Positions 3,163-25,938 of a DNA stretch of 64,000 nt are shown piece after piece. The notes under the pieces are model-generated. The model was not told the origin of the DNA, searched no databases, and saw nothing but the letters and a program-made list of their open reading frames with translations. Within the stretch, counting starts at the first letter, position 1. Each line of letters begins with the position of its first letter. The position numbers were made by a program, and so were the translations under genes. This stretch comes from a virus, in the IMG/VR virus record IMGVR_UViG_3300011113_000123, positions 1-64,000 of that record; one strand, written 5' to 3'.

Positions 3163-6100
3163 ATGGCTGCAGAAGCTAATAACGTCACGCTCTCAACGAA
3201 CTTCAACGTAGCACCTTACTACGACGATTTCAATGAGTCTAAAAACTTCCATCGTATTCTGTTCCGCCCAGGATTGGCTGTTCAGGCTCGCGAACTCACG
3301 CAGATGCAAACGATCCTTCAGAATCAGATCGACCGTTTCGCTGAACATATCTTCAAAGAAGGTTCTACGGTTCGCGGAATGGAAGCGAACTATGATACCC
3401 GATACAGCTATATTAAATTGCGCAATAACACTTCTACAGGAGCAGATGTTACTGTAACGAACTTTGATAGCAAAATCGTTAAGGGTGTTACTTCTGGTGT
3501 ACTAGCTAAGGTCATCAAGGTCAACGATGGTTCAGAAGCCAACACGCCAAACTTTAAGACTTTGTTCGTTAAGTATCTTGCAGCCAATAATACGACAGGG
3601 TTTAAGTTCTTCGCGAACAACGAAATCGTAAATACGGTTGGTGGTGGAACGATCTACTCAGCAAACACAATCACGTCTGCTCAGGGTGGAGCAACTGGTT
3701 ATGGTTCAGCTGTAACTTTCAATGCTGGTGTGGTTTACGCTAAAGATCATTTCATTCGCGTTCCTGAGCAGACTGTAGTTGTAAGCAAGTATGATACTAC
3801 AACAGCTTCTGGGCGCATTGGTTTTGATGTTACAGAAACGATTGTAACAGAAACAGCCGACGAAACTCTTCTTGATCCAGCTCAGGGTGCGTATAACTAT
3901 GCAGCTCCTGGTGCAGCTCGTTTAAAACTTACGGCTGATCTCCGTAGAGTAGGTCTAAACGATACTGTGTCTAACACATTCGTTGAACTATTTCAAGTTA
4001 AGGACGGTGTTGTACAATCTATTTCAACGCGTCCACAGTATGCTAGAATCAGAGATTATATCGCTCAGCGCACGTTCGACGAGTCTGGTGACTATGTTGT
4101 AAACGGATTTGAGATTAACGTAAAAGAACATCTTAAGGTTGGAAACAATCAAGGAGTTCTGACTGCTGGCAATGGTGGTAACTCACAGCTTCTTGTTGTG
4201 TATGCTGAACCAGGTAAGGCTTATGTTAAGGGCTATGATATTGAGCGCGTTGCTTCTACGAACAGAGTTGTTCAGAAAGCTATAGACACAGAATCTATCG
4301 AATCTGCTAAAGCTCTTGCTGACTATGGTAACTATCTCATCGTTGATAACGTAGTAGGTAACTGGGATCTAAATCGTCAGAGCATTGTTTCATTGCGTTC
4401 GCAGCAAGCGAATGCTGTTAGCACGCTGAACTATTCTTCGACTAATTTCCCAGCGAGCCAAATCGGTACTGCGCGTGTGCGCGGTGTCGAGTATTACACT
4501 GGAACGCCAGGGCTACCTAGCGCTCAGTACAAATTATACATCACAGACGTTAAGATGGCAGCTGGTCAGTCATTCACTGGTGTTCAGTCAATTGGTTTTA
4601 ATGGCGGCGTAGGTACTGTTAAAGGTAAAGCAGACGTACTAGGTTCAAACGGGCTCAATGCTAACACAGTCGATCCATTGTTTGATCGTGCTGTGTTTAG
4701 ACTACCAGCACAAGCTATTAAACGCCTAAGAAATACCTCAGGTGCAGTAAACAACGACTACTCTTTCTATAAGTCGTTCGATATTACGTTTAACTCTGCG
4801 GGTCAAGCTCAAATCACAACAGGCGATACTTCTGAAACATTTGATGGTTCAGGAACGCTCAGTGATGCGGCTACTCGTACAGACTTTTATGTCGTAAGCC
4901 GTTCAAACGGTAATACGACAACGTTCAGCGAAACGCTTACGACAACAAGCGGTTCAAATACAGTAACGGCAAGCGCCACGATTGATGGAAAAGTCAATCC
5001 AGGTGATATTATCAATATCCATACAGGCGGCGGCAACTTCCTTGTCAGCGCAGTAAATGGTACAACAATCAATCTATTTGGTAATGCTTCAGCTTCTGGT
5101 GCTGGTAAAGCGTTCCATAAGAGATTCTTTGCAGGACAAGTTCTAGATCTTGCTGGTAATGGTAGAGATGGTGCTCGCTCGATCGCTGTTTCAGGAACTC
5201 CTACAACCACAGCAGATCTTGATATCAATGAAACGCTAAACTCGACTTCTCTGGATGCTACAGCTATCGTTAAGCTGAACAAGATCGATGGTCAAGAGCA
5301 GGCTAAGACTGTTCAGCGTAATCGACTGGTTCAGATTCGCGTTGGTGCTGGTGGTGGTACTTCTTACACAGCTAACACAACTGGTCCATGGCCTCTTGGT
5401 CTATCGGACGGGTTTAAGCTCGTTGAAGTTCGTAAGAAAAATGGTTCTAACTTCGCATCAACGACAGAAGGAACTGATGTAACTTCTCACTTCACTATTG
5501 ATAGTGGCATGTTTGACAGTTTCTATAGTCATGCAAGCCTGAAGAAAAAGTCATCAAGCTCTCTTTCTATCGTTTCTGGCGACAGATTGCTTGTGAAGCT
5601 AGATTACTTTACTCACGGCACGTCTAATCGTGGTTTCTTCTCAGTCGACTCTTATCCAGTCGACGATGCAACTGCTGCATCAGATTCTACGAAGATCTTC
5701 ACTTACGAAATCCCTGTGTTCGTTTCACCAACGAACGGTATCTCTTACGATCTGCGCGACTGCGTTGATTTCCGTCCGCGTATGACGGATACTGCGAACA
5801 ACGTCACGAGTGTTACGAATATCTCTATCAACCCAAAAACATCGAACACGTTCGTTCTTCCATCAGGCGGTTTGCACTTCTCACCTCCTAATGAAGATTT
5901 CACTACGGATCTAGATTACTATCTGCGCCGTATTGATATCGTAGGATTGAATACGGACGGAGAGCTGATCATAACTAGAGGCGTTCCAGCCTTGCGCCCA
6001 GCGACACCTCCTGCTCCGAATGATGTTATGGCGATGGCGTCTATCGATCTTGCACCGTATCCTTCTCTGCCGCCAGTCATCGCGCGTAGAGTAGGGCGTC

Positions 6101-17025: not shown

Positions 17026-17637
17026 TTAGATGAACTTGGGTCCAAGGCACCATACAACCAATGACTTACGATTACCTTTAGTTACTGGCGTCACACGATG
17101 AATCATAAAGGACGGGAAAAGAACAGCCCGTCCTTTATGCATTGGGACTATCAGCGGTGTTTCTTCCTTACCGTTATTGATTTGAAACTCACCACCCTCA
17201 AAATCATCGTTGAGCGCGAGCGAAAGTGACAGCTTACGCGGCTCTGCATCGTTACCAAACTTTTCACCAAACGTCATATCTGTGTGCCAGTCGTATCGAC
17301 CATTCGAGTCGTAGGTTGTATACTGGAACGAATCATAACCATTCAGGTGAAAGTTATAGAACTGTTCGTTTGCAGCCTGAATGATAAAGTTCAGCTTATC
17401 AAAAATCCACGCCGTATTTTCGTTTCTTTCATGAAACTTGACGTTCGACACGCGATGCTTCTCGATGTCTTCTTTTGATTGAGCACCAAACGTAACACCT
17501 TGCTCTGTACCAGATGAATCGCAATAATCAACAATAGCCTTGAGTTCTTCATCAGTAAACGCGCCGTCCCAAGTCACATAAGGGAACGTGATCTGCGAAC
17601 GCTGCCAGGGATTATTGTATATTGTCGTGTATGTCAA
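17026..17637 (-). CDS. 2OG-Fe(II) oxygenase, PKHD/prolyl-hydroxylase type
   Basis: A 203-residue soluble enzyme. The iron ligands are visible as H118 and D120 (in RYDWHTDMTFG) and H180 (in FPSFMIHRV). R190 in NRKSLVVW is the expected 2-oxoglutarate ligand, and GGEF precedes the distal strand. This is the layout of the 2OG-Fe(II) oxygenase superfamily, which couples 2-oxoglutarate decarboxylation to hydroxylation of protein or small-molecule targets. Such genes are frequent in T4-like cyanophages. It is the last gene of the minus-strand operon and overlaps 17634-18317 by four bases. Confidence 0.8.
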   Translation of the reverse strand: MTYTTIYNNPWQRSQITFPYVTWDGAFTDEELKAIVDYCDSSGTEQGVTFGAQSKEDIEKHRVSNVKFHERNENTAWIFDKLNFIIQAANEQFYNFHLNGYDSFQYTTYDSNGRYDWHTDMTFGEKFGNDAEPRKLSLSLALNDDFEGGEFQINNGKEETPLIVPMHKGRAVLFPSFMIHRVTPVTKGNRKSLVVWCLGPKFI

Positions 17638-18317
17638 AACTGTCTCCAGTTGCTTACAGGTTGAATACCAAGCGGGCTTGCTGTTTTATTTTTGTATGTG
17701 AGAACGACGTCTGCCGCAAGACATATACGATTTTCGTTTAGTTCTGCGAATGTAGGATTGCCTTTATCCTCACCATTCGTTTGACCAATCGTATCGTGTG
17801 GGAGCGTAGAAGGAAACACTAGCAGCTGCCCCTCGACTGGCTCAAACTGCCATGTGTATGCGTTGAACCAATCCCACGTATCGTTTTTATTATTCCATCT
17901 GATTGAGCCTGGATATGGCTCATGACGACGTTCATAGTTGAAGAAACGGATTGGGCGAACGAACGTCGTCGGAACATTTACGTAGTAAGTGAACGACACG
18001 TGTGCGTCCCCATGCGCGTGATACGGCGTTGAGTCGTCCTTCTTGATATTCATCCACGTCTTCACGAGATTGAACTCAAACTTATCCGTGTCGATGTGTA
18101 GTCGCCTTACGTATTGCTTCACGCAGTCGATAGCGAACGTGAAGAACGGATTGAACGACTCTTCATGATGGATATTGACGTGACCAGTGAACTCGTTAGA
18201 GTAACCTTCTGGCGTCATGTAGTTGAAGATCTTCTGATAAAATAGATCTTTGAACTGATCTTTCTTATCGTAATGGAACTCGCATACTAGGGTAGGGAAT
18301 AGAGCATGTTCAATCAT
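17634..18317 (-). CDS. Putative 2OG-Fe(II) oxygenase, second type
   Basis: A 227-residue protein. PYHAHGDAHVSFTYYVNVP at 98-116 supplies an H-x-D pair (H102, D104). EGQLLVFPSTLPHDT supplies H174, and the late Arg of NRICLAADV (R197) fits the co-substrate site. This order matches the PF13759-like oxygenase group (His-rich motif, then aromatic strand, then FPS-x-L-x-H). It is not a duplicate of the neighbouring oxygenase. It overlaps both neighbours by four bases, so three minus-strand genes appear translationally coupled. The target is unknown. Confidence 0.65.
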   Translation of the reverse strand: MIEHALFPTLVCEFHYDKKDQFKDLFYQKIFNYMTPEGYSNEFTGHVNIHHEESFNPFFTFAIDCVKQYVRRLHIDTDKFEFNLVKTWMNIKKDDSTPYHAHGDAHVSFTYYVNVPTTFVRPIRFFNYERRHEPYPGSIRWNNKNDTWDWFNAYTWQFEPVEGQLLVFPSTLPHDTIGQTNGEDKGNPTFAELNENRICLAADVVLTYKNKTASPLGIQPVSNWRQF

Positions 18318-19303
18318 TTTTCACTCTGTAGCGATCTGAGTTTATTTAATACTGATGCTGATGCGTTCGCAGAAGTAGCTATGATTTGCTCGGCTTGTTC
18401 GCCTGTGATGAGCTGAACTTCCATCCTTGATTTAGTCGCTTCTGCTATGTATGCTGGATCATTTACCGCTTTATTGAATGCTTCGCGTAACTCGCGAACT
18501 CTGGCTGCTGGAACGCCTGGAGGAGCGATGAATGGTCTCAGTAGAATGAACTGCGTTTCGAAGATATCGAGGATAGCAAGATCTTCTTCGTTCGTAATTA
18601 GCTCAGCGAATGTAGGTACATCCTTGAAGTCTGGATGGCGAATCTTAGCGTTACCAAATTGCATCAGCGCGCGGATGCCGCTGTTAGATTCTGTCCACTG
18701 TGTCTGTGTTCTGATTCCTAATAGATTGAAGATAACTGCATCAACTTCTTTGCGTTCCAGAGCTAGTCGAGCTGCACCTGGGTTAGCGTATCCCGCAATC
18801 TGTCTGAAGTTGAGCCCTAACGAGTTTCGAATGAACTTCGTCGAGTCAGCCGATACGATACTCTCAGTGCCGACGATCAGTTCTTTTGTCTTAAACTCGC
18901 TCAGAGATTCTGTCCTGTGGGTCCATACAATGACTGCATCTTTACGCCCATCAACGGTAGACCCTAGCCAGTTGAACTTGGTAGGGTCAAACATAATCGT
19001 AGGACCACCCAAGATACCTACGAGCGGAATGTTCTTATACACTGTAGCAATCGTTCCGCCGTCGCGTGGGGCTACGTTATACATGTAATTTGTAGCGACC
19101 AAGCTAGACGCTCCAGGCATAACTTGAATGACTGGAGAAGGTTTTTCGGGAAGATATTTGGCTATGTGTGGGGCTATGATTCTAGCATTGATGTTATAGC
19201 TATCTGCAGGCGAAGGGGTAATAATACGCAGTTCTTGCGCCATCGCACTCGCAGATAGCGCCAAAAACAAAACTAATGATCTAATCATATTATTATATAG
19301 CAT
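18314..19303 (-). CDS. Tripartite tricarboxylate transporter-type binding protein (Bug/TctC family)
   Basis: A 329-residue protein with a signal peptide (LVLFLALSASAMA before QELRI). Typical Bug features are present: a PGASSLVATNYMYNVAPRDGGTIATV block near the N-terminus, GYANPGAARLALERKEVDAV mid-protein and PPGVPAARVRELREAFNKA near the C-terminus. Bug proteins capture carboxylates in the periplasm for TctAB transporters and are abundant in alpha- and betaproteobacteria. An alternative start at 19288 (MIRSL) would give a tighter signal peptide; neither start has an ideally spaced ribosome site. It is the first gene of the minus-strand operon. Very unusual cargo for a T4-like phage. Confidence 0.8.
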   Translation of the reverse strand: MLYNNMIRSLVLFLALSASAMAQELRIITPSPADSYNINARIIAPHIAKYLPEKPSPVIQVMPGASSLVATNYMYNVAPRDGGTIATVYKNIPLVGILGGPTIMFDPTKFNWLGSTVDGRKDAVIVWTHRTESLSEFKTKELIVGTESIVSADSTKFIRNSLGLNFRQIAGYANPGAARLALERKEVDAVIFNLLGIRTQTQWTESNSGIRALMQFGNAKIRHPDFKDVPTFAELITNEEDLAILDIFETQFILLRPFIAPPGVPAARVRELREAFNKAVNDPAYIAEATKSRMEVQLITGEQAEQIIATSANASASVLNKLRSLQSEK

Positions 19304-19339: not shown

Positions 19340-19618
19340 ATGGACTTTTTCAAGCTCGTTGCCGAGGTTGGTTTTCCTATAGCATCTGCAATAGCAGGCG
19401 GATATTTTGTTTTCCTCACGCTTAAGTTTATTCTAGCTGGTGTTATGTCGAGTGTCAAGGGCCTTTCAGGAATTATCATGGCCCTGGATAATCGCGTAAA
19501 GACCATGAATCACGACGTCATTCGTATTGACACATTGGTTTCCAATGCGCTTGGTTTGAAGCCAGACACGGATCGTATAGCCCGTGCTGATGGTAAGAAC
19601 GACGCAAGGAGAGACTAA
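19340..19618 (+). CDS. Small membrane protein, holin-like, copy 1
   Basis: A 92-residue protein with one N-terminal membrane segment (about residues 9-34, GFPIASAIAGGYFVFLTLKF), then an amphipathic helix and a charged C-terminus. It shares GFPI, a Gly-Tyr/Phe-rich membrane segment and an I-x-AL-x-x-R-x-x-x-x-x-x-D-x-IR pattern with the next gene, so the two arose by tandem duplication. The architecture (one membrane helix plus amphipathic helix) resembles BhlA/UviB-like holins, but no assay-type evidence exists in the sequence. The ribosome site is AAAGGA. It overlaps the next gene by one base. Confidence 0.5.
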   Translation: MDFFKLVAEVGFPIASAIAGGYFVFLTLKFILAGVMSSVKGLSGIIMALDNRVKTMNHDVIRIDTLVSNALGLKPDTDRIARADGKNDARRD

Positions 19619-19917
19619 TGACTGGCGAAATCGTTAACCTGATTAATAAGTATGGCTTCCCTATCGTGGCTGCTGGCGGAATGGGTTATTTGATTTTCTA
19701 TGTGTGGAAATGGGCCACGCAAGAAATCAAACCAGTTCTGTCAGAAGCAAATACAGTTCTGATCGCATTGATTGATCGTATTCGTATGTTGGATAACGAT
19801 CTTATTCGCCTTAATCAAAAGGTTAATGTCGTATTAACATTACGACAGAAACAAATCGAGGAGATGAAAGATGCTCAGACTAACGACGATAGCGGTGCTG
19901 ATAAGCCTAAGCAATAG
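19618..19917 (+). CDS. Small membrane protein, holin-like, copy 2
   Basis: A 99-residue paralogue of 19340-19618. It has a membrane segment at about 12-34 (YGFPIVAAGGMGYLIFYVWKW), then a coiled-coil-like helix (ALIDRIRMLDNDLIRLNQKV) and an acidic tail. The start ATG overlaps the previous stop (TAATG). The last 47 bases overlap csgF in another frame. Being first in the curli-like operon, the pair could be lysis proteins or inner-membrane partners of the secretion apparatus. Function inferred. Confidence 0.5.
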   Translation: MTGEIVNLINKYGFPIVAAGGMGYLIFYVWKWATQEIKPVLSEANTVLIALIDRIRMLDNDLIRLNQKVNVVLTLRQKQIEEMKDAQTNDDSGADKPKQ

Positions 19918-20314
19918 TTCGTTCGCTTCTGAATTGCAATTTGGCTTTAAGAGTCCTGCGTTTAACGGCGTAGGATACTCTGCTCACGTTCTAACCATTG
20001 AGAATCTCGAACACACGCGTCGTCAGAAGATCTTTGACGATGCGAAAGCTGCTGCGGCTAAAGAAGCAGCAGATGCTAAGAATACGAACTTAGCTAAGTT
20101 TCTAAACAACTTGGAAAGTCGTATCTATGCTACGTTATCACAGAAGATAGCAGAAGAGCTTTTCAAGGATGGTGGGAACACGACAGGCACGTTTGATGTG
20201 GCGGGTAATAACATCTATTGGTCCAGCACTGGGTCAACGATTACGCTACGCATCACAGATCCTGCGGGTAAGGTAACGGAAATAGAAGTTCCATACGGGA
20301 GCTTGGCATGGTAA
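19871..20314 (+). CDS. csgF: Curli assembly factor CsgF
   Basis: A 147-residue exported protein. The signal peptide ends SSFA before SELQFGFKSPAFNG. The mature N-terminus (LQFGFKSPAFNG) matches the conserved CsgF beginning (an xFxFxNPxFGG-type sequence) that inserts into the CsgG pore. It is followed by a helical region ending in a stretch like FLNNLESRIYATLSQKI and a C-terminal strand repeat with TLRITDPAGKVTEIEVP, as in CsgF. CsgF caps the outer-membrane channel and helps nucleate curli. GAGGAG precedes the start, and the end overlaps csgG by seven bases, which supports joint function. Confidence 0.85.
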   Translation: MLRLTTIAVLISLSNSSFASELQFGFKSPAFNGVGYSAHVLTIENLEHTRRQKIFDDAKAAAAKEAADAKNTNLAKFLNNLESRIYATLSQKIAEELFKDGGNTTGTFDVAGNNIYWSSTGSTITLRITDPAGKVTEIEVPYGSLAW

Positions 20315-21114
20315 AAGCACTAAGTGTAATTGTAGCAAGTTTGTTGTTAGCTTCTTGCGCGACTCAAGAAAATACGAAAGATCGCATCGAAGCGATGTCC
20401 GAACCTGCGGAAATCATTACACGCAAACGTTCCAACGAGCTGATGAACTTACCGCCGCTCGATGGTCCAAAGATTCCGATTGCTGTGTATCGTTTTCCAG
20501 ACATGACAGGACAACGTAAGCCAGCTACGAACTTTGCAAGTTTAAGTTCTGCTGTCACGCAGGGAGCGGAAGTGTTTCTGTTCAAGGCGCTTCATGATGC
20601 AGGAAGAGGGCAGTGGTTCCAAGTCGTAGAACGTTCTGCTCTAGAAAACTTAGTTAAGGAACGACAACTGATTCGCTCGCAGCGTGAGCTGTATGAAAAG
20701 GATCAAGCCAAGCCACTGACGCCACTTATCGTGGCAGGTATCATGCTAGATGGTGGAGTCGTTGGATATGATTCTAATATAGGAACTGGAGGTATTGGCG
20801 CTCGACTACTGGGCGTTGGTGCTACACAAGAATACCGTAAGGATGAAGTCACTGTTGTATTGCGCTTGATTTCCGTAAACACAGGCGAAGTTCTGCTATC
20901 AACTGGCGCATCCAAAACGGTTTTGAGTACGGGAGCAGGGGCTAACGTATTTAAATTCATTGATGTCGGAACTAAATCCGTAGAATTTGAAGCTGGATCG
21001 ACAATCAATGAGCCAACAACTTACGCTGTACGAATCGCAATCGAGGCAGCGGTGGCCGATATGGTAAAAGAGGGAGCTAAGAAAAAGCTCTGGAGCTACA
21101 AGAAAACGAGGTAA
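20308..21114 (+). CDS. csgG: Curli secretion channel lipoprotein CsgG
   Basis: A 268-residue protein. A lipoprotein signal ends at LLLASC with the lipidation Cys at residue 17. The mature chain follows CsgG closely: IPIAVYRFPDMTGQRKPATN, a QGAE-x-x-LFKAL helix, WFQVVERSALENLVKERQLI, then AGIMLDGGVVGYDSN, GGIGARLLGVGATQEYRKDEV, VSVNTGEVL-type strands and SKTVLS. Size and order match the family (about 260-280 residues). In bacteria nine copies form a 36-strand outer-membrane pore that exports curlin. It overlaps csgF and is followed by a curlin-repeat gene. No csgE is seen nearby. Confidence 0.92.
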   Translation: MVKALSVIVASLLLASCATQENTKDRIEAMSEPAEIITRKRSNELMNLPPLDGPKIPIAVYRFPDMTGQRKPATNFASLSSAVTQGAEVFLFKALHDAGRGQWFQVVERSALENLVKERQLIRSQRELYEKDQAKPLTPLIVAGIMLDGGVVGYDSNIGTGGIGARLLGVGATQEYRKDEVTVVLRLISVNTGEVLLSTGASKTVLSTGAGANVFKFIDVGTKSVEFEAGSTINEPTTYAVRIAIEAAVADMVKEGAKKKLWSYKKTR

Positions 21115-21120
21115 CAACCA

Positions 21121-21798
21121 ATGAGAATTCCGAGTCTGACATTCTTGTCATTCTTGGTCATGGTTGGAAATGCAAACGCTCAACCCAATACTGTGTATGT
21201 GGAGCAAATAGGTTCAGGATCAACGATTAACTTTACACAAACGGGAACAGGTAACGCGATTGGAAATTCAACAGCGAAAGCTGTTGTGAATGGCAACAAC
21301 AATACGATCACTGTAGAACAGATAGGAAATACCAACGTCGCTGCTCTCAATGCAGTCGGCGCTGGTATGAACATATCTTCTATCACTAACGGAAACGGAA
21401 ACTCTGTTTCTATCGACTGTGGATCATCTGGCGATTGTACTGGATCAACGATCTCGAACACAATCACTGGTAACGGTAACTCATTAACCACAAACTCCGA
21501 CAACTTGATTGATTCTACTGTGACTATCAACTCTGATAATAACACGGTAACGATCGACAACACGTCAACAGCGGTGAGCGGTGCTAAGTCTAAGATTGAC
21601 ATTAGCGGTGGTAACGGTAACACAGTCGCGCTCACGCAAGCGGGAGCAGCTGGAACTAACGGACACGACGCTGAGGTTAATATCTCAGGTGCTACCAACA
21701 ATGTTCTAGTAAAGCAAGGTGGAAACAATGATTCCATGGTCAACGCTACAATCATTGGTTCTGGTAACACTCTGTCTATTAAGTCCAACTTACAGTAA
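21121..21798 (+). CDS. Curlin-repeat amyloid-like protein (CsgA/CsgB type)
   Basis: A 225-residue protein with a signal peptide (ending NANA before QPN). The mature part is built of Asn/Gly-rich strands with curlin-like units of the form N-x-x-x-V-x-Q-x-G-x-x-N: NTVYVEQIGSG, NNTITVEQIGNTN, NTVALTQAG and NNVLVKQGGNN. The intervening region (GNGNSLTTNSDN and similar) is a looser Asn/Ser/Thr ladder. One Cys pair lies in DCGSSGDC. Directly behind csgG, this is the expected exported subunit. It could be a curli-like fibre or a beta-solenoid adhesin. The next gene starts inside its 3' end in another frame. Confidence 0.75.
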   Translation: MRIPSLTFLSFLVMVGNANAQPNTVYVEQIGSGSTINFTQTGTGNAIGNSTAKAVVNGNNNTITVEQIGNTNVAALNAVGAGMNISSITNGNGNSVSIDCGSSGDCTGSTISNTITGNGNSLTTNSDNLIDSTVTINSDNNTVTIDNTSTAVSGAKSKIDISGGNGNTVALTQAGAAGTNGHDAEVNISGATNNVLVKQGGNNDSMVNATIIGSGNTLSIKSNLQ

Positions 21799-22828
21799 TG
21801 CTTCTGTAGGTACGGTAACAGAACAGACAGGACCGACCGAAATAAAACGTCAGACGAATGTGATTCTCAGCGCCAGGGATACTGGCGTTGAGATGCAAGA
21901 TGTTATTACGACTGCGAACGCGAAAGCGAACATCACATTCAAAGACGACACCAAGGTACAAATCACAGAACATTCTAGGCTTGTTATCGACAACTTCGTC
22001 TACGACGATAGTAAGAAAACTGGTAGGCTCGGAATGAAAATGGCGTTGGGTACTATCAAGTATGCCAGTGGTCAGATAGCGAAAGCTAATCCTCAACAAG
22101 TAACAATCGAAACTCCTACTGCGACCATCGGCGTTCGTGGTACGGACTTTTCTGGGACCGTAGATGAGATTGGGCGTTCGACTATCATTCTCCTTCCTTC
22201 ATGCCCAGTCGGATGGAGAAACATTCAGCGTGATTGTGTGGTAGGATCTATTACGGTTACAACGGATATGGGAACCGTGGTACTCACTCGTGCGTTTGAA
22301 GCGGTGAACGTACAAACGCGAATGGCCCAACCCAAATCGTCGATACTGAATCTTTCGCTGGATCAAATTAATAATCTAATCATCGTAAGTCCGCCAGCCT
22401 CTGTGCGAACAGAAACGGCTGCTGTTCGCACAAGAAACTTACTCGACGATGACCTTTTAGGTAAAGATTTTCTAAAGTACGATGAGCTCGACAAGAATCA
22501 GCTCGACGAGTATCGAAAACTAGATGAAAACTTTTTGGATAAAGACTATCTCTATAACTTTCTAGACGTAGCTGGTACGCAACTATTGACTAACGAGCTC
22601 GCTGAGTTCAATGCAATGTTACCTAAATATGACGCAAGGAGTGGGCTAAAGTATTTCGTAGAAAACGATGCAGTCACATTGTATCGTGAAACTGTGAATG
22701 CGTTCGCCAGCGTTACTGTGCCAATGTATGATAGCATGACTTTGCGATTGAGTCAAGAAGGCTTGGAAATCAAACAAATCGTTAACTCAGCCGGAACAAC
22801 AACGATCACTATTAGACAGAGTAACTAA
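21728..22828 (+). CDS. Exported FecR-domain protein
   Basis: A 366-residue protein. I chose ATG 21728 rather than the GTG at 21719 because it opens a clean signal peptide (MIPWSTLQSLVLVTLCLLSP, cleavage near YSNA). Residues 25-160 form a FecR domain (PF04773 type): GTVTEQTGPTEIKR, DVITTANAKANITFKDDT, ITEHSRLVIDNF and the hallmark TPTATIGVRGTDF. The remainder is acidic and helical with a repeated L-D-x-x-x-LD pattern (DELDKNQLDEYRKLDE). Unlike classical FecR it is exported and lacks an N-terminal anti-sigma region. Its first 71 bases overlap the curlin gene. FecR proteins often sit beside CHASE2 cyclases, as here. Confidence 0.8.
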   Translation: MIPWSTLQSLVLVTLCLLSPTYSNASVGTVTEQTGPTEIKRQTNVILSARDTGVEMQDVITTANAKANITFKDDTKVQITEHSRLVIDNFVYDDSKKTGRLGMKMALGTIKYASGQIAKANPQQVTIETPTATIGVRGTDFSGTVDEIGRSTIILLPSCPVGWRNIQRDCVVGSITVTTDMGTVVLTRAFEAVNVQTRMAQPKSSILNLSLDQINNLIIVSPPASVRTETAAVRTRNLLDDDLLGKDFLKYDELDKNQLDEYRKLDENFLDKDYLYNFLDVAGTQLLTNELAEFNAMLPKYDARSGLKYFVENDAVTLYRETVNAFASVTVPMYDSMTLRLSQEGLEIKQIVNSAGTTTITIRQSN

Positions 22829-22830
22829 TC

Positions 22831-23094
22831 ATGAAATCATTACTAGCTCTGCTTTTCTTAACGATTTCTGCTAATGCGCAGCAGATCAATAACGCAACAG
22901 TGAATGTAATCGGAAACAATCAGAATGTTATTATTAATCAATCTGGCGTTGGTCACAACGCTAATCTTAATCTTTATGGCAATGACATACCTGTTAGTGT
23001 TACTCAGTCAGGCTCTACTCCGCAGTCTTTTAATCTTAGCATTACCTGCTATAGCAATTGTTCTAACGCTCCAACTGTGGTTAATCAATACTGA
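22831..23094 (+). CDS. Short curlin-like exported protein
   Basis: An 87-residue protein with a signal peptide (MKSLLALLFLTISANA, then QQINN). The mature 71 residues contain NNQNVIINQSGVGHNANLNL and DIPVSVTQSG, two curlin-style N-V-x-Q-x-G units, and a C-terminal part with two cysteines. It may be a nucleator or minor subunit (CsgB-like role) for the larger curlin at 21121, but the role is inferred. It starts two bases after the FecR stop and ends two bases before the cyclase start. Confidence 0.6.
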   Translation: MKSLLALLFLTISANAQQINNATVNVIGNNQNVIINQSGVGHNANLNLYGNDIPVSVTQSGSTPQSFNLSITCYSNCSNAPTVVNQY

Positions 23095-23096
23095 CA

Positions 23097-25160
23097 ATGG
23101 AAAAAATTGGTCAATACCTAACAAGCACATGGTCAGCTGTTATCTCAGCGATAATCCTGCTGGGCGTATATGTGTGGAATCCCAGCGCCGTTGAGATACT
23201 AAGGCTGAAGACGTTCGACTATCTCATATCGACGTTACAGCCTAAAGAGTCAGAAGAAATCATCATCGTCGAGTTTGGTGAAAAGTCCGTAGAGCGATTT
23301 GGTCAGTGGCCATTCGATAGACGCGATATCGCTAAAACTGTTCAAGCCCTTCGTGAGAACGATGCTGGCGTTATTGTTGTTCCCATCCTTATGTCCGAGA
23401 AGGACAGAGCTGGTGGTGACGCAAAGTTAATTGAAACGATCAAAGATAATGGAGTAGTCCTTGCTCAAACCCCTACTAATCAAAACACTAAGCCTGATGC
23501 AGTACGCCGCGGAGTCGCTGCTATCGGTCCTACTGATCCTCGCAGCTATACTTTTCGCTGGAACGGTGGATTACGCCCTCTGGATGAGTTGGCAGGGTCT
23601 GCTCAAGGGGTCGGGGTTCTCGCTTCTGTCCCCGAAGTCGATGGTGTTGTTCGTCGTCTCCCTCTACTTGTTACTATTGCAGGCAATCTGTATCCATCTC
23701 TACCTATTGAAGCGATTAGAGTTTGGTCCGATGATAAAAGCTATCAAGTCAAAACTAGCGAAGCGGGAATAGAGTTCGTACGCATTCCAGCAGTTCCACC
23801 TATCGCTACAGACGAGCGCGGTAGAGTATGGCTATCATGGAATAACAAGTTTACTAGAATCGACGCAACAGAAATAGATCAGAGAGTTCAAGGAAAGCTA
23901 GTCATCCTTGGCGTCTCGATTGAAGGTGTCGGCGGGATTATCGGCACCCCAGCGGGCGAAAAGTGGAGTCATGAAGTTCAAGCATCTGCGTTGCAAACTT
24001 TGATAGATGGATCGTCGATAACACGAGTGTCTTTTGCGACGATAGTCGAGCTGCTCGTTCTATCTGGTATGCTAGGATTATTGCTTGTTCTTGTGCCAAG
24101 AACGTCTGTTTTATGGACTGCGCCATTATATCTAGCATTTATTGGGATCTCCGCATATGGTTCGTACTACATGTTCAAAGAACATATGCAGCTCTGGGAT
24201 GCCAGTTATTTATTGTTAGCAGGCACAGCGAGCTTTGGTCACTTAGTATATAACAACTTCGCTCGCGAGAACAGACTGAAACTACAAATCAAAAAGCAGT
24301 TCGGAACGTATCTGTCACCAGCGATGGTCGAAAAGCTGCAACAGAATCCTGACCTACTCAAGTTAGGTGGAGAGACTCGCGAGCTTTCAATTATGTTCAC
24401 TGACGTTCGCGGCTTCACTGCTATCAGCGAGCATTACGGAAGCGACGTTCAGGGATTGACGCGCATCATGAATCGTTATATGACAGCGATGACTCAAAAG
24501 ATCCTTGAGAATAACGGAACGTTGGATAAGTACATTGGCGATGCGCAGATGGCATTTTGGAACGCACCCCTAGACGATCGCGATCACGCTAAGAACGCAG
24601 TCAAAACTGCATTGGAGATGTTAGATGACTTGGATAGATTCAATAATGAGATCTCTGTGGAAGGAGTTCCCCCGTTTGGTATGGGTCTCGGTATTAACTC
24701 TGGTTCTGTGGTCGTTGGTAACATGGGCAGCTCTCAGCGTTTTGATTATACATGCCTTGGTGACTCTGTAAATCTAGCTTCACGTCTCGAAGGTCAGTCT
24801 AAGCCCTATCACGTCAAGATGATCATTGGCGAACGTACCGCTGAGCTTCTGAACGGCGACTATCCGCTCGCAGAGCTAGATTGCATCGCGGTCAAAGGTA
24901 AAACTAAAGGCGTCAAGATATACACGATCGTTCCAGGAACAGGCATACAGCGCGAGCATCTCAAGAATCACAACAAGTTCATAAAGGCTTATCGATATCA
25001 GGACTGGGAGAACGCTCTATTCTATTTGAAGATTCTTAGAGGCGCGTTCAACAAAGAACTCGACGAGTACTATGCTATGATGGAGGAGCGTATCGCAGAA
25101 CTACGCGTCGCTGATTTGCCTAAAGATTGGGATGGCGTATACAGGGCTACATCGAAATGA
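23097..25160 (+). CDS. CHASE2-domain class III adenylate cyclase
   Basis: A 687-residue inner-membrane protein. An N-terminal membrane helix (about 11-28) is followed by an extracytoplasmic CHASE2 domain (about 35-305, with FGQWPFDRRDIAKTV and GGIIGTPAGEKWSHEVQASAL), three membrane helices (about 310-385) and a cytoplasmic class III cyclase domain (about 400-610). Catalytic residues are intact: metal ligands D436 (FTDVRGFT) and D482 (YIGDA), adenine-site K478 and T552, and N559 and R563 (VNLASRLE). The K/T pair favours ATP, so the product should be cAMP. CHASE2 senses an unknown periplasmic signal. It is the last gene before the late promoter of gp13. Confidence 0.9.
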   Translation: MEKIGQYLTSTWSAVISAIILLGVYVWNPSAVEILRLKTFDYLISTLQPKESEEIIIVEFGEKSVERFGQWPFDRRDIAKTVQALRENDAGVIVVPILMSEKDRAGGDAKLIETIKDNGVVLAQTPTNQNTKPDAVRRGVAAIGPTDPRSYTFRWNGGLRPLDELAGSAQGVGVLASVPEVDGVVRRLPLLVTIAGNLYPSLPIEAIRVWSDDKSYQVKTSEAGIEFVRIPAVPPIATDERGRVWLSWNNKFTRIDATEIDQRVQGKLVILGVSIEGVGGIIGTPAGEKWSHEVQASALQTLIDGSSITRVSFATIVELLVLSGMLGLLLVLVPRTSVLWTAPLYLAFIGISAYGSYYMFKEHMQLWDASYLLLAGTASFGHLVYNNFARENRLKLQIKKQFGTYLSPAMVEKLQQNPDLLKLGGETRELSIMFTDVRGFTAISEHYGSDVQGLTRIMNRYMTAMTQKILENNGTLDKYIGDAQMAFWNAPLDDRDHAKNAVKTALEMLDDLDRFNNEISVEGVPPFGMGLGINSGSVVVGNMGSSQRFDYTCLGDSVNLASRLEGQSKPYHVKMIIGERTAELLNGDYPLAELDCIAVKGKTKGVKIYTIVPGTGIQREHLKNHNKFIKAYRYQDWENALFYLKILRGAFNKELDEYYAMMEERIAELRVADLPKDWDGVYRATSK

Positions 25161-25168
25161 TATAAATA
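25161..25168 (+). promoter_or_regulatory. T4-type late promoter TATAAATA
   Basis: An exact octamer immediately after the cyclase stop, 26 bases before the gp13 ATG at 25195. It separates the curli-like locus from the conserved structural operon. Confidence 0.8.
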
Positions 25169-25194: not shown

Positions 25195-25938
25195 ATGGCA
25201 ACAATATCATCAAGACAAGCATTTAAGGACTATGTTCTGCGCCGTCTTGGCTATCCAGTAATCGACATTAACGTAGACGACGAGCAGGTAGAAGATCGTA
25301 TCGACGATGCCCTGCTCAAGTTCCGCGACTATCACTACGACGGATCAGAGCACGTTTACCTGCCGTATCAGGTTACAGCTCAAGATAGAGTTAACAAGTA
25401 CATCACGCTACCTGAAGAAATCATTGGCGTGACTCGTATTTTTGATATCAACGATTCATACAATGCGATGAATCTGTTCAATATCCGTTATCAGCTTCAC
25501 CTTAACGAACTGTTTAACATTTCCAGCGTATCGGTTACACCATACGTTGTTGCGATGCGTCACATCGAGTTTCTCGAGGAAGTGTTCGTAGGTAAGAAAC
25601 CTATCCGTTTCAATCGTCACATCGACAGGCTCTATATCGACATGAAATGGGACGAAGACGTACAGGTTGGTCAGTTCATTATCATCGACTGTTATCGCGG
25701 CGTTGATCCAGAAGTTTACACTGACGTCTGGAATGATAGGTGGCTGAAGCAATATGCGACTGCGCTTGTTAAACGTCAGTGGGGTGAGAACCTTAAGAAG
25801 TTCGAGGGTATGAATCTTCCAGGCGGCATCACGTTCAATGGTCAAAAGATCTGGGAAGAAGCGACTGCAGAAATCGAAAAGATGGATTCAGAAGTTATCA
25901 ACAACTACTCGCTACCAGTCACTGATATGATCGGATAA
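25195..25938 (+). CDS. 13: Neck protein gp13 (head completion)
   Basis: A 247-residue protein. ATG 25195 is chosen because it follows the late promoter and GGAG, and the N-terminus (ATISSRQAFKDYVLRRLGYPV then INVDDEQVEDRIDDAL) matches T4-like gp13. An upstream in-frame extension would cross the promoter. gp13 with gp14 closes the portal after packaging and forms the tail attachment site. gp14 begins two bases downstream. Confidence 0.88.
   Translation: MATISSRQAFKDYVLRRLGYPVIDINVDDEQVEDRIDDALLKFRDYHYDGSEHVYLPYQVTAQDRVNKYITLPEEIIGVTRIFDINDSYNAMNLFNIRYQLHLNELFNISSVSVTPYVVAMRHIEFLEEVFVGKKPIRFNRHIDRLYIDMKWDEDVQVGQFIIIDCYRGVDPEVYTDVWNDRWLKQYATALVKRQWGENLKKFEGMNLPGGITFNGQKIWEEATAEIEKMDSEVINNYSLPVTDMIG

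Follow-up and report, generated by a model that had tools for sequence, protein, structure and literature searches.

The window, which is the whole 64,000-nucleotide stretch of viral DNA analysed here, is part of a 157,580-bp virus record that carries 27 tRNA genes and in which no tyrosine integrase was found. One of its genes appears to encode a membrane-bound sensor adenylate cyclase. This raises the questions of whether the enzyme would be active and what it would report to the infected cell. A lytic phage that makes a second messenger would be able to act directly on host physiology, and cyclase genes of this family are abundant in aquatic phages. On balance, we lean towards a working CHASE2/class IIIb adenylate cyclase that would report the state of a periplasmic FecR protein or of the curli pore to the host cytoplasm, a reading drawn from sequence and a predicted structure.

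Domain architecture and active site of the cyclase

The cyclase gene (23097–25160, + strand) runs from ATG to TGA and encodes 687 residues. It had been claimed as a CHASE2 cyclase in an earlier note made from the letters of the sequence, and Pfam confirmed this assignment, with CHASE2 (PF05226) on residues 24–323 (E 1.2e-35) and Guanylate_cyc on residues 428–611 (E 2e-22). PHROG 35576 was matched over the full length (E 5.8e-215). This value, the hundreds of viral relatives and a median dN/dS of 0.07 for the catalytic domain exclude a chance match. The Pfam and PHROG matches, the catalytic residues and the model all point to a CHASE2 class III (IIIb-type) adenylate cyclase.

The protein was modelled with AlphaFold2 as a monomer using 100 homologues, and its homodimeric active site is an assumption. 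The model had a pLDDT of 92.9 and a pTM of 0.72; an earlier one based on nine sequences was poorer (pLDDT 73.3). One predicted transmembrane helix at the N-terminus (residues 11–27) precedes the CHASE2 domain (residues about 28–310), and three come after it (residues 314–332, 338–363, and 370–403), the last of which extends into the linker. They are followed by the catalytic domain (residues 424–615) and C-terminal helices (residues 618–671). Helices 3 and 4 are weakly hydrophobic on the Kyte-Doolittle scale. This predicted arrangement is the topology of CHASE2 sensor proteins, and it fits the four membrane helices and extracytoplasmic CHASE2 domain described previously.

Asp436, Lys478, Asp482, Thr552, Asn559, and Arg563, the six catalytic residues named in the earlier note, are all at the claimed positions and align with those of CyaC, CyaB, and Cya2, as in class III (IIIb) cyclases. 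Structure prediction of the cyclase domain, which that note had proposed as a check, gave the class III catalytic fold. The modelled domain superimposed on Pseudomonas aeruginosa CyaB (3r5g_A) with a Z score of 23.7 and a deviation of 1.4 Å over 188 residues, and on CyaC complexes with ATP analogues with Z scores of 22.8–23.3. A sequence search of the CHASE2 part against the PDB gave no match. A Lys/Thr pair marks the adenine-type site of class IIIb cyclases. The window cyclase has this pair, and ATP is therefore its predicted substrate.

Homologues were collected by four viral scans and one bacterial scan, with the best 80 loci taken per scan; the counts per clade are therefore not abundances. 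The four viral scans gave at least 287 near-full-length viral cyclase sequences, including that of the window. A single-sequence query found no matches in bacterial genome contigs, and an alignment query gave the best 80 alphaproteobacterial homologues. In the resulting phylogeny, the viral cyclases form their own clade against the bacterial ones (support 1.0), on a stem of 1.2 substitutions per site. Catalytic signatures were read at positions 436/478/482/552/559/563. Among the 287 viral and 80 alphaproteobacterial sequences sampled, the signature of the window, DKDTNR, occurs in 129 viral and 5 bacterial sequences, and DKDSNR occurs in 79 viral and 75 bacterial ones. DKDDSR was read in 78 of the 287 viral sequences, and one further viral sequence is incomplete at the site. 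All of the 80 alphaproteobacterial homologues listed have a canonical catalytic site.

The DKDDSR sequences constitute the Melnitz clade, which is monophyletic (support 1.0). In all 78 sampled members, Ser replaces the transition-state Asn559 and Asp replaces Thr552. The Melnitz-clade segment SYDVLGDSVSTAAR aligned with DYTCLGDSVNLASR without gaps; therefore, the replacement of Asn559 by Ser is real. In class III cyclases, this Asn acts with the Arg to stabilise the transition state, and its mutation strongly impairs the enzyme; the cyclase of the Melnitz clade may therefore be slow or altered.

The changed residues of this sister clade favour a reading of the protein as a pseudo-enzyme, a membrane scaffold or a CHASE2 decoy with a catalytic domain that no longer works. 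We regard this as improbable for the window protein. It keeps the six residues, as does every complete sequence of its clade, and the loss of Asn559 to Ser is confined to the Melnitz clade; the phylogeny thus speaks against the inactive pseudo-cyclase clade that the earlier note had envisaged as a refutation. The near-perfect match of the predicted fold to CyaB also argues against a pseudo-enzyme, as does selection. By domain, the median dN/dS was 0.069 for the cyclase and 0.147 for CHASE2. For the catalytic domain it was 0.069 in the DKDTNR group, 0.052 in the Melnitz clade and 0.061 in the HTVC008M clade; these values are descriptive because the sequence pairs are not independent. Within the protein, constraint is strongest on the catalytic domain in all three. 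Constraint is equally strong in the Melnitz clade, which lacks the transition-state Asn, and some of the function may therefore be independent of full catalysis. The constraint on the catalytic domain in each clade and the change from Asn to Ser in the Melnitz clade, against a canonical site in the window clade and in bacteria, are new sequence-based observations. The active site, strong purifying selection and non-degenerate clade support the reading of the window protein as a canonical ATP-type sensor cyclase. DKDTNR, DKDSNR, and DKDDSR are natural variants for a clean assay of activity, which would show whether phage cAMP is important.

The curli operon and its surroundings

The cyclase gene is the last of a tight same-strand set that starts with two phrog_18771 genes. 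The first (19340–19618, +) encodes a small membrane and coiled-coil protein of 92 residues, and the second (19618–19917, +) encodes a paralogue of 99 residues with a weak holin-like N-terminus; neither has a kinase domain. One or two histidine kinases have been reported in front of podophage T8SS modules (PMC9599517), and the phrog_18771 pair may be what that study calls "histidine kinase, sometimes two". A tandem phrog_18771 pair also precedes csgF in HTVC008M (L003:4926–5207 and 5204–5488).

The pair is followed by csgF, encoding the T8SS chaperone (19871–20314, +; Pfam CsgF, E 2.7e-16), and csgG, encoding the outer-membrane curli pore (20308–21114, +; Pfam CsgG, E 7.5e-54). The next gene (21121–21798, +) encodes a CsgA/B-like curlin-repeat protein, for which the Pfam Curlin_rpt match (E 0.0014) is below the curated cut-off. 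In Melnitz and HTVC008M, the gene in this position is annotated as a curlin. The FecR-domain protein (21719–22828, +; Pfam FecR, E 5e-12; phrog_37870) has a signal peptide, and its gene likely starts at the ATG at 21728. Between this gene and the cyclase gene, with gaps of 2 bp on both sides, lies a gene for a small secreted N/Q-rich protein (22831–23094, +). It is a candidate second curlin-like subunit by position and composition, and Pfam gave no curlin match for it at E 0.01. The order csgF-csgG-curlin-FecR-curlin-cyclase is thus present at 19871–25160, the second curlin being assigned by position and composition only.

The same company is kept elsewhere. Of 158 viral loci for which 5.5 kb or more of upstream sequence is available, 146 encode CsgF, CsgG, and FecR beside the cyclase; at most of the other 12, the flank seems to end too early or inserted genes seem to intervene. 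This retention argues against an active cyclase that answers to a general cue, such as envelope stress, bicarbonate, or redox state, and raises cAMP to steer host carbon metabolism, with the operon providing only co-expression. We consider such a role possible though unlikely; it is in keeping with the class IIIb Lys/Thr site, which is also that of CyaC, an enzyme with some structures solved in complex with bicarbonate.

T4-type neck, terminase, and portal genes lie directly downstream of the cyclase. A T4-type late-promoter-like motif, TATAAATA (25161–25168, +), begins at the first base after the cyclase stop codon. The window has eight motifs of this type, all on the + strand, where 2.1 would be expected. 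Of the 27 loci that share the downstream neck gene, 11 carry the motif no more than 100 nt past the cyclase stop, and in 10 of these it is at the immediate post-stop position. No late-promoter motif was found within 900 nt upstream of csgF in any of nine loci, and we infer that the curli-cyclase operon has no late promoter of its own at its head. The head-tail adaptor (neck) gene probably starts at 25195, behind the motif, and not at 25132; the overlap of the cyclase and adaptor genes is therefore likely an annotation effect.

Some other features were also noted. Just upstream of the curli module, an inverted three-gene cassette (17026–19303, −) runs against the local direction of transcription and comprises two 2OG-Fe(II) oxygenase-like genes and a gene for a TctC-type periplasmic binding protein. 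At L398:11124–11951, a protein encoded by the phage has an N-terminus that by eye resembles KDO-8-phosphate synthase of LPS synthesis. A SeC tRNA (tca) called by ARAGORN at L397:335–412 was considered as a possible stop suppressor and rejected, as its anticodon loop better fits tRNA-Glu (TTC).

FecR-CHASE2 linkage and the proposed route to the host

To ask which partner CHASE2 might have, we turned to bacteria. A set of 76 evenly drawn alphaproteobacterial genomes contains 69 CHASE2 domains, of which 21 lie within 8 kb of a FecR domain; random placement of FecR in these genomes would give 0.73. In 12 of the 21 cases, FecR is upstream on the same strand. Among the bacterial loci of cyclase homologues, a gene for a FecR-domain protein immediately precedes the cyclase, in the same orientation, at 25 of 65. 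Two of four upstream bacterial FecR proteins examined have RTX repeats, and one of the two also has cadherin/Ig repeats. The enrichment makes FecR the best candidate partner, although this linkage is gene-neighbourhood evidence and not proof of contact. The tie of the cyclase to FecR in bacteria is new; it lends independent support to the link between the two that the earlier note had guessed, and gives a sensor domain with few known ligands a specific candidate partner. Specific FecR-cyclase co-evolution was considered and rejected, since the mirror-tree correlation (0.69) lies among those of other operon pairs (0.63–0.82).

The bacterial FecR-CHASE2 link is present away from curli genes, which also argues against a general cue; 48 of the 69 sampled CHASE2 domains, without FecR within 8 kb, favour one. 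Neither csgF nor csgG was found in the bacterial FecR-cyclase homologue loci. Conversely, neither FecR nor a cyclase was found within about 9 kb of csgFG at the five above-cut-off loci from 385 alphaproteobacterial genomes searched, a weak negative because the loci are few. With FecR-CHASE2 pairs lacking csgFG, and csgFG lacking FecR or cyclase, the phage module seems to combine two bacterial modules, one for curli export and the other a FecR-CHASE2 sensor pair.

In the favoured reading, of a cyclase that reports on FecR or the curli pore, CHASE2 would be anchored in the inner membrane during infection, face the periplasm and read the state of FecR or of the curli pore or subunits. This would alter how the cytoplasmic catalytic domains are arranged in the dimer and, in turn, the rate at which host ATP is converted to cAMP, which would act through CRP-type regulators or other cAMP-binding proteins of the host. 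In Sinorhizobium meliloti, CHASE2 cyclases answer to an extracellular protein in a pathway that includes a barrel in the outer membrane and Clr, a regulator of the CRP family (PMC13001267); removal of CHASE2 there leads to constitutive cAMP (PMC5498481).

A phage-encoded cAMP receptor that would close the loop was sought and rejected: no cNMP-binding domain was found in the genome of the window or in 20 other cyclase-bearing phage records, which can be incomplete. Any effect of cAMP must therefore go through the host. SAR11 genomes are low in GC, and the GC content of the window phage (about 45%) argues against a SAR11 host.

The closest view to the published one (PMC9599517) is a feed-forward loop in which cAMP turns on the phage's own curli operon via host CRP. 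The cyclase is a member of that operon, and cAMP-CRP acts on csgD and curli in E. coli, as cited in the same study. However, a CsgD-like gene has not been reported for the phage modules (PMC9599517), the 21 records have no cNMP-binding protein, and the cyclase would be made from the very operon that it switches on. We give this loop little credence.

More specifically than the favoured reading, FecR and the CHASE2 cyclase might constitute a two-part inside-out sensor of the CsgG pore or of amyloid assembly, with cAMP serving to time envelope remodelling or lysis or to act as a checkpoint on them, and the change from Asn to Ser in the Melnitz clade might retune the output. This proposal is tentative and rather unlikely. 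If true, it would be a phage-borne second-messenger checkpoint on the phage's own secretion system.

Comparison with known systems

The earlier note had called a membrane sensor cyclase highly unusual in a lytic phage. This is not supported; the gene has been published (PMC9599517) and is widespread in marine T4-like phages and podophages. A T8SS module including FecR and an adenylate cyclase was described in podo- and myo-pelagiphages in 2022, in a study that reports its origin in Alphaproteobacteria, its exchange between phage families and T8SS expression in ocean metatranscriptomes (PMC9599517). According to that study, canonical bacterial curli operons lack FecR and the cyclase. Annotated cyclases stand in the same operon of Pelagibacter phage HTVC008M (AGE60353.1) and Methylophilales phage Melnitz (QZI95054.1), and the finding of a phage cyclase is therefore not new as stated. 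Two other papers describe phage curli genes and do not mention the cyclase (PMC7029224, PMC9004378), and the word CHASE2 is absent from all three.

A CHASE2 cyclase is also carried by virus records of 236–338 kb with a terminase (L331, L347, L356, L379, L381, and L063), which are beyond the phages described in those papers; in L379 and L063, CsgG and FecR are beside it. One record, L380 (IMGVR_UViG_3300025120_009955), is the only sampled viral-clade cyclase locus with neither FecR nor CsgG within 7 kb. Its neighbours by eye are sulfur-oxidation and molybdopterin oxidoreductase-like genes, and the record may come from a phage that carries further metabolic genes, or may be a cellular contig that was sorted incorrectly.

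Compared with HTVC008M and Melnitz, the window has the same gene order and full-length domain architecture, with a cyclase identity of 41–43%. The active sites differ (DKDTNR in the window, DKDSNR in HTVC008M, and DKDDSR in Melnitz). The window phage has about 45% GC, and its operon abuts the neck and terminase genes and not the tail tape-measure side.

The comparison with host-type CHASE2 cyclases suggested in the earlier note gave 32–39% identity over nearly the full length. Alphaproteobacterial cyclases of the S. meliloti CyaD1/CyaD2/CyaK type share the TM-CHASE2-3TM-cyclase order, the C-terminal motif, and the canonical residues. However, their FecR partner occurs in other contexts, for example in RTX-repeat proteins, and not with curli as in the phages. 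CyaB of P. aeruginosa (3r5g) and CyaC of Spirulina platensis (1wc1) have the fold (1.4–1.8 Å over 187–188 residues) and the catalytic residues in common with the window cyclase, but their sensor domains differ. In a biofilm-controlling operon of Burkholderia, FecR/LysM is paired with a CHASE2 histidine kinase (PMC5192318). As in the phage, a periplasmic FecR is encoded beside a CHASE2 membrane sensor, there with a link to biofilm; unlike in the phage, the output is a histidine kinase and the operon has no curli genes.
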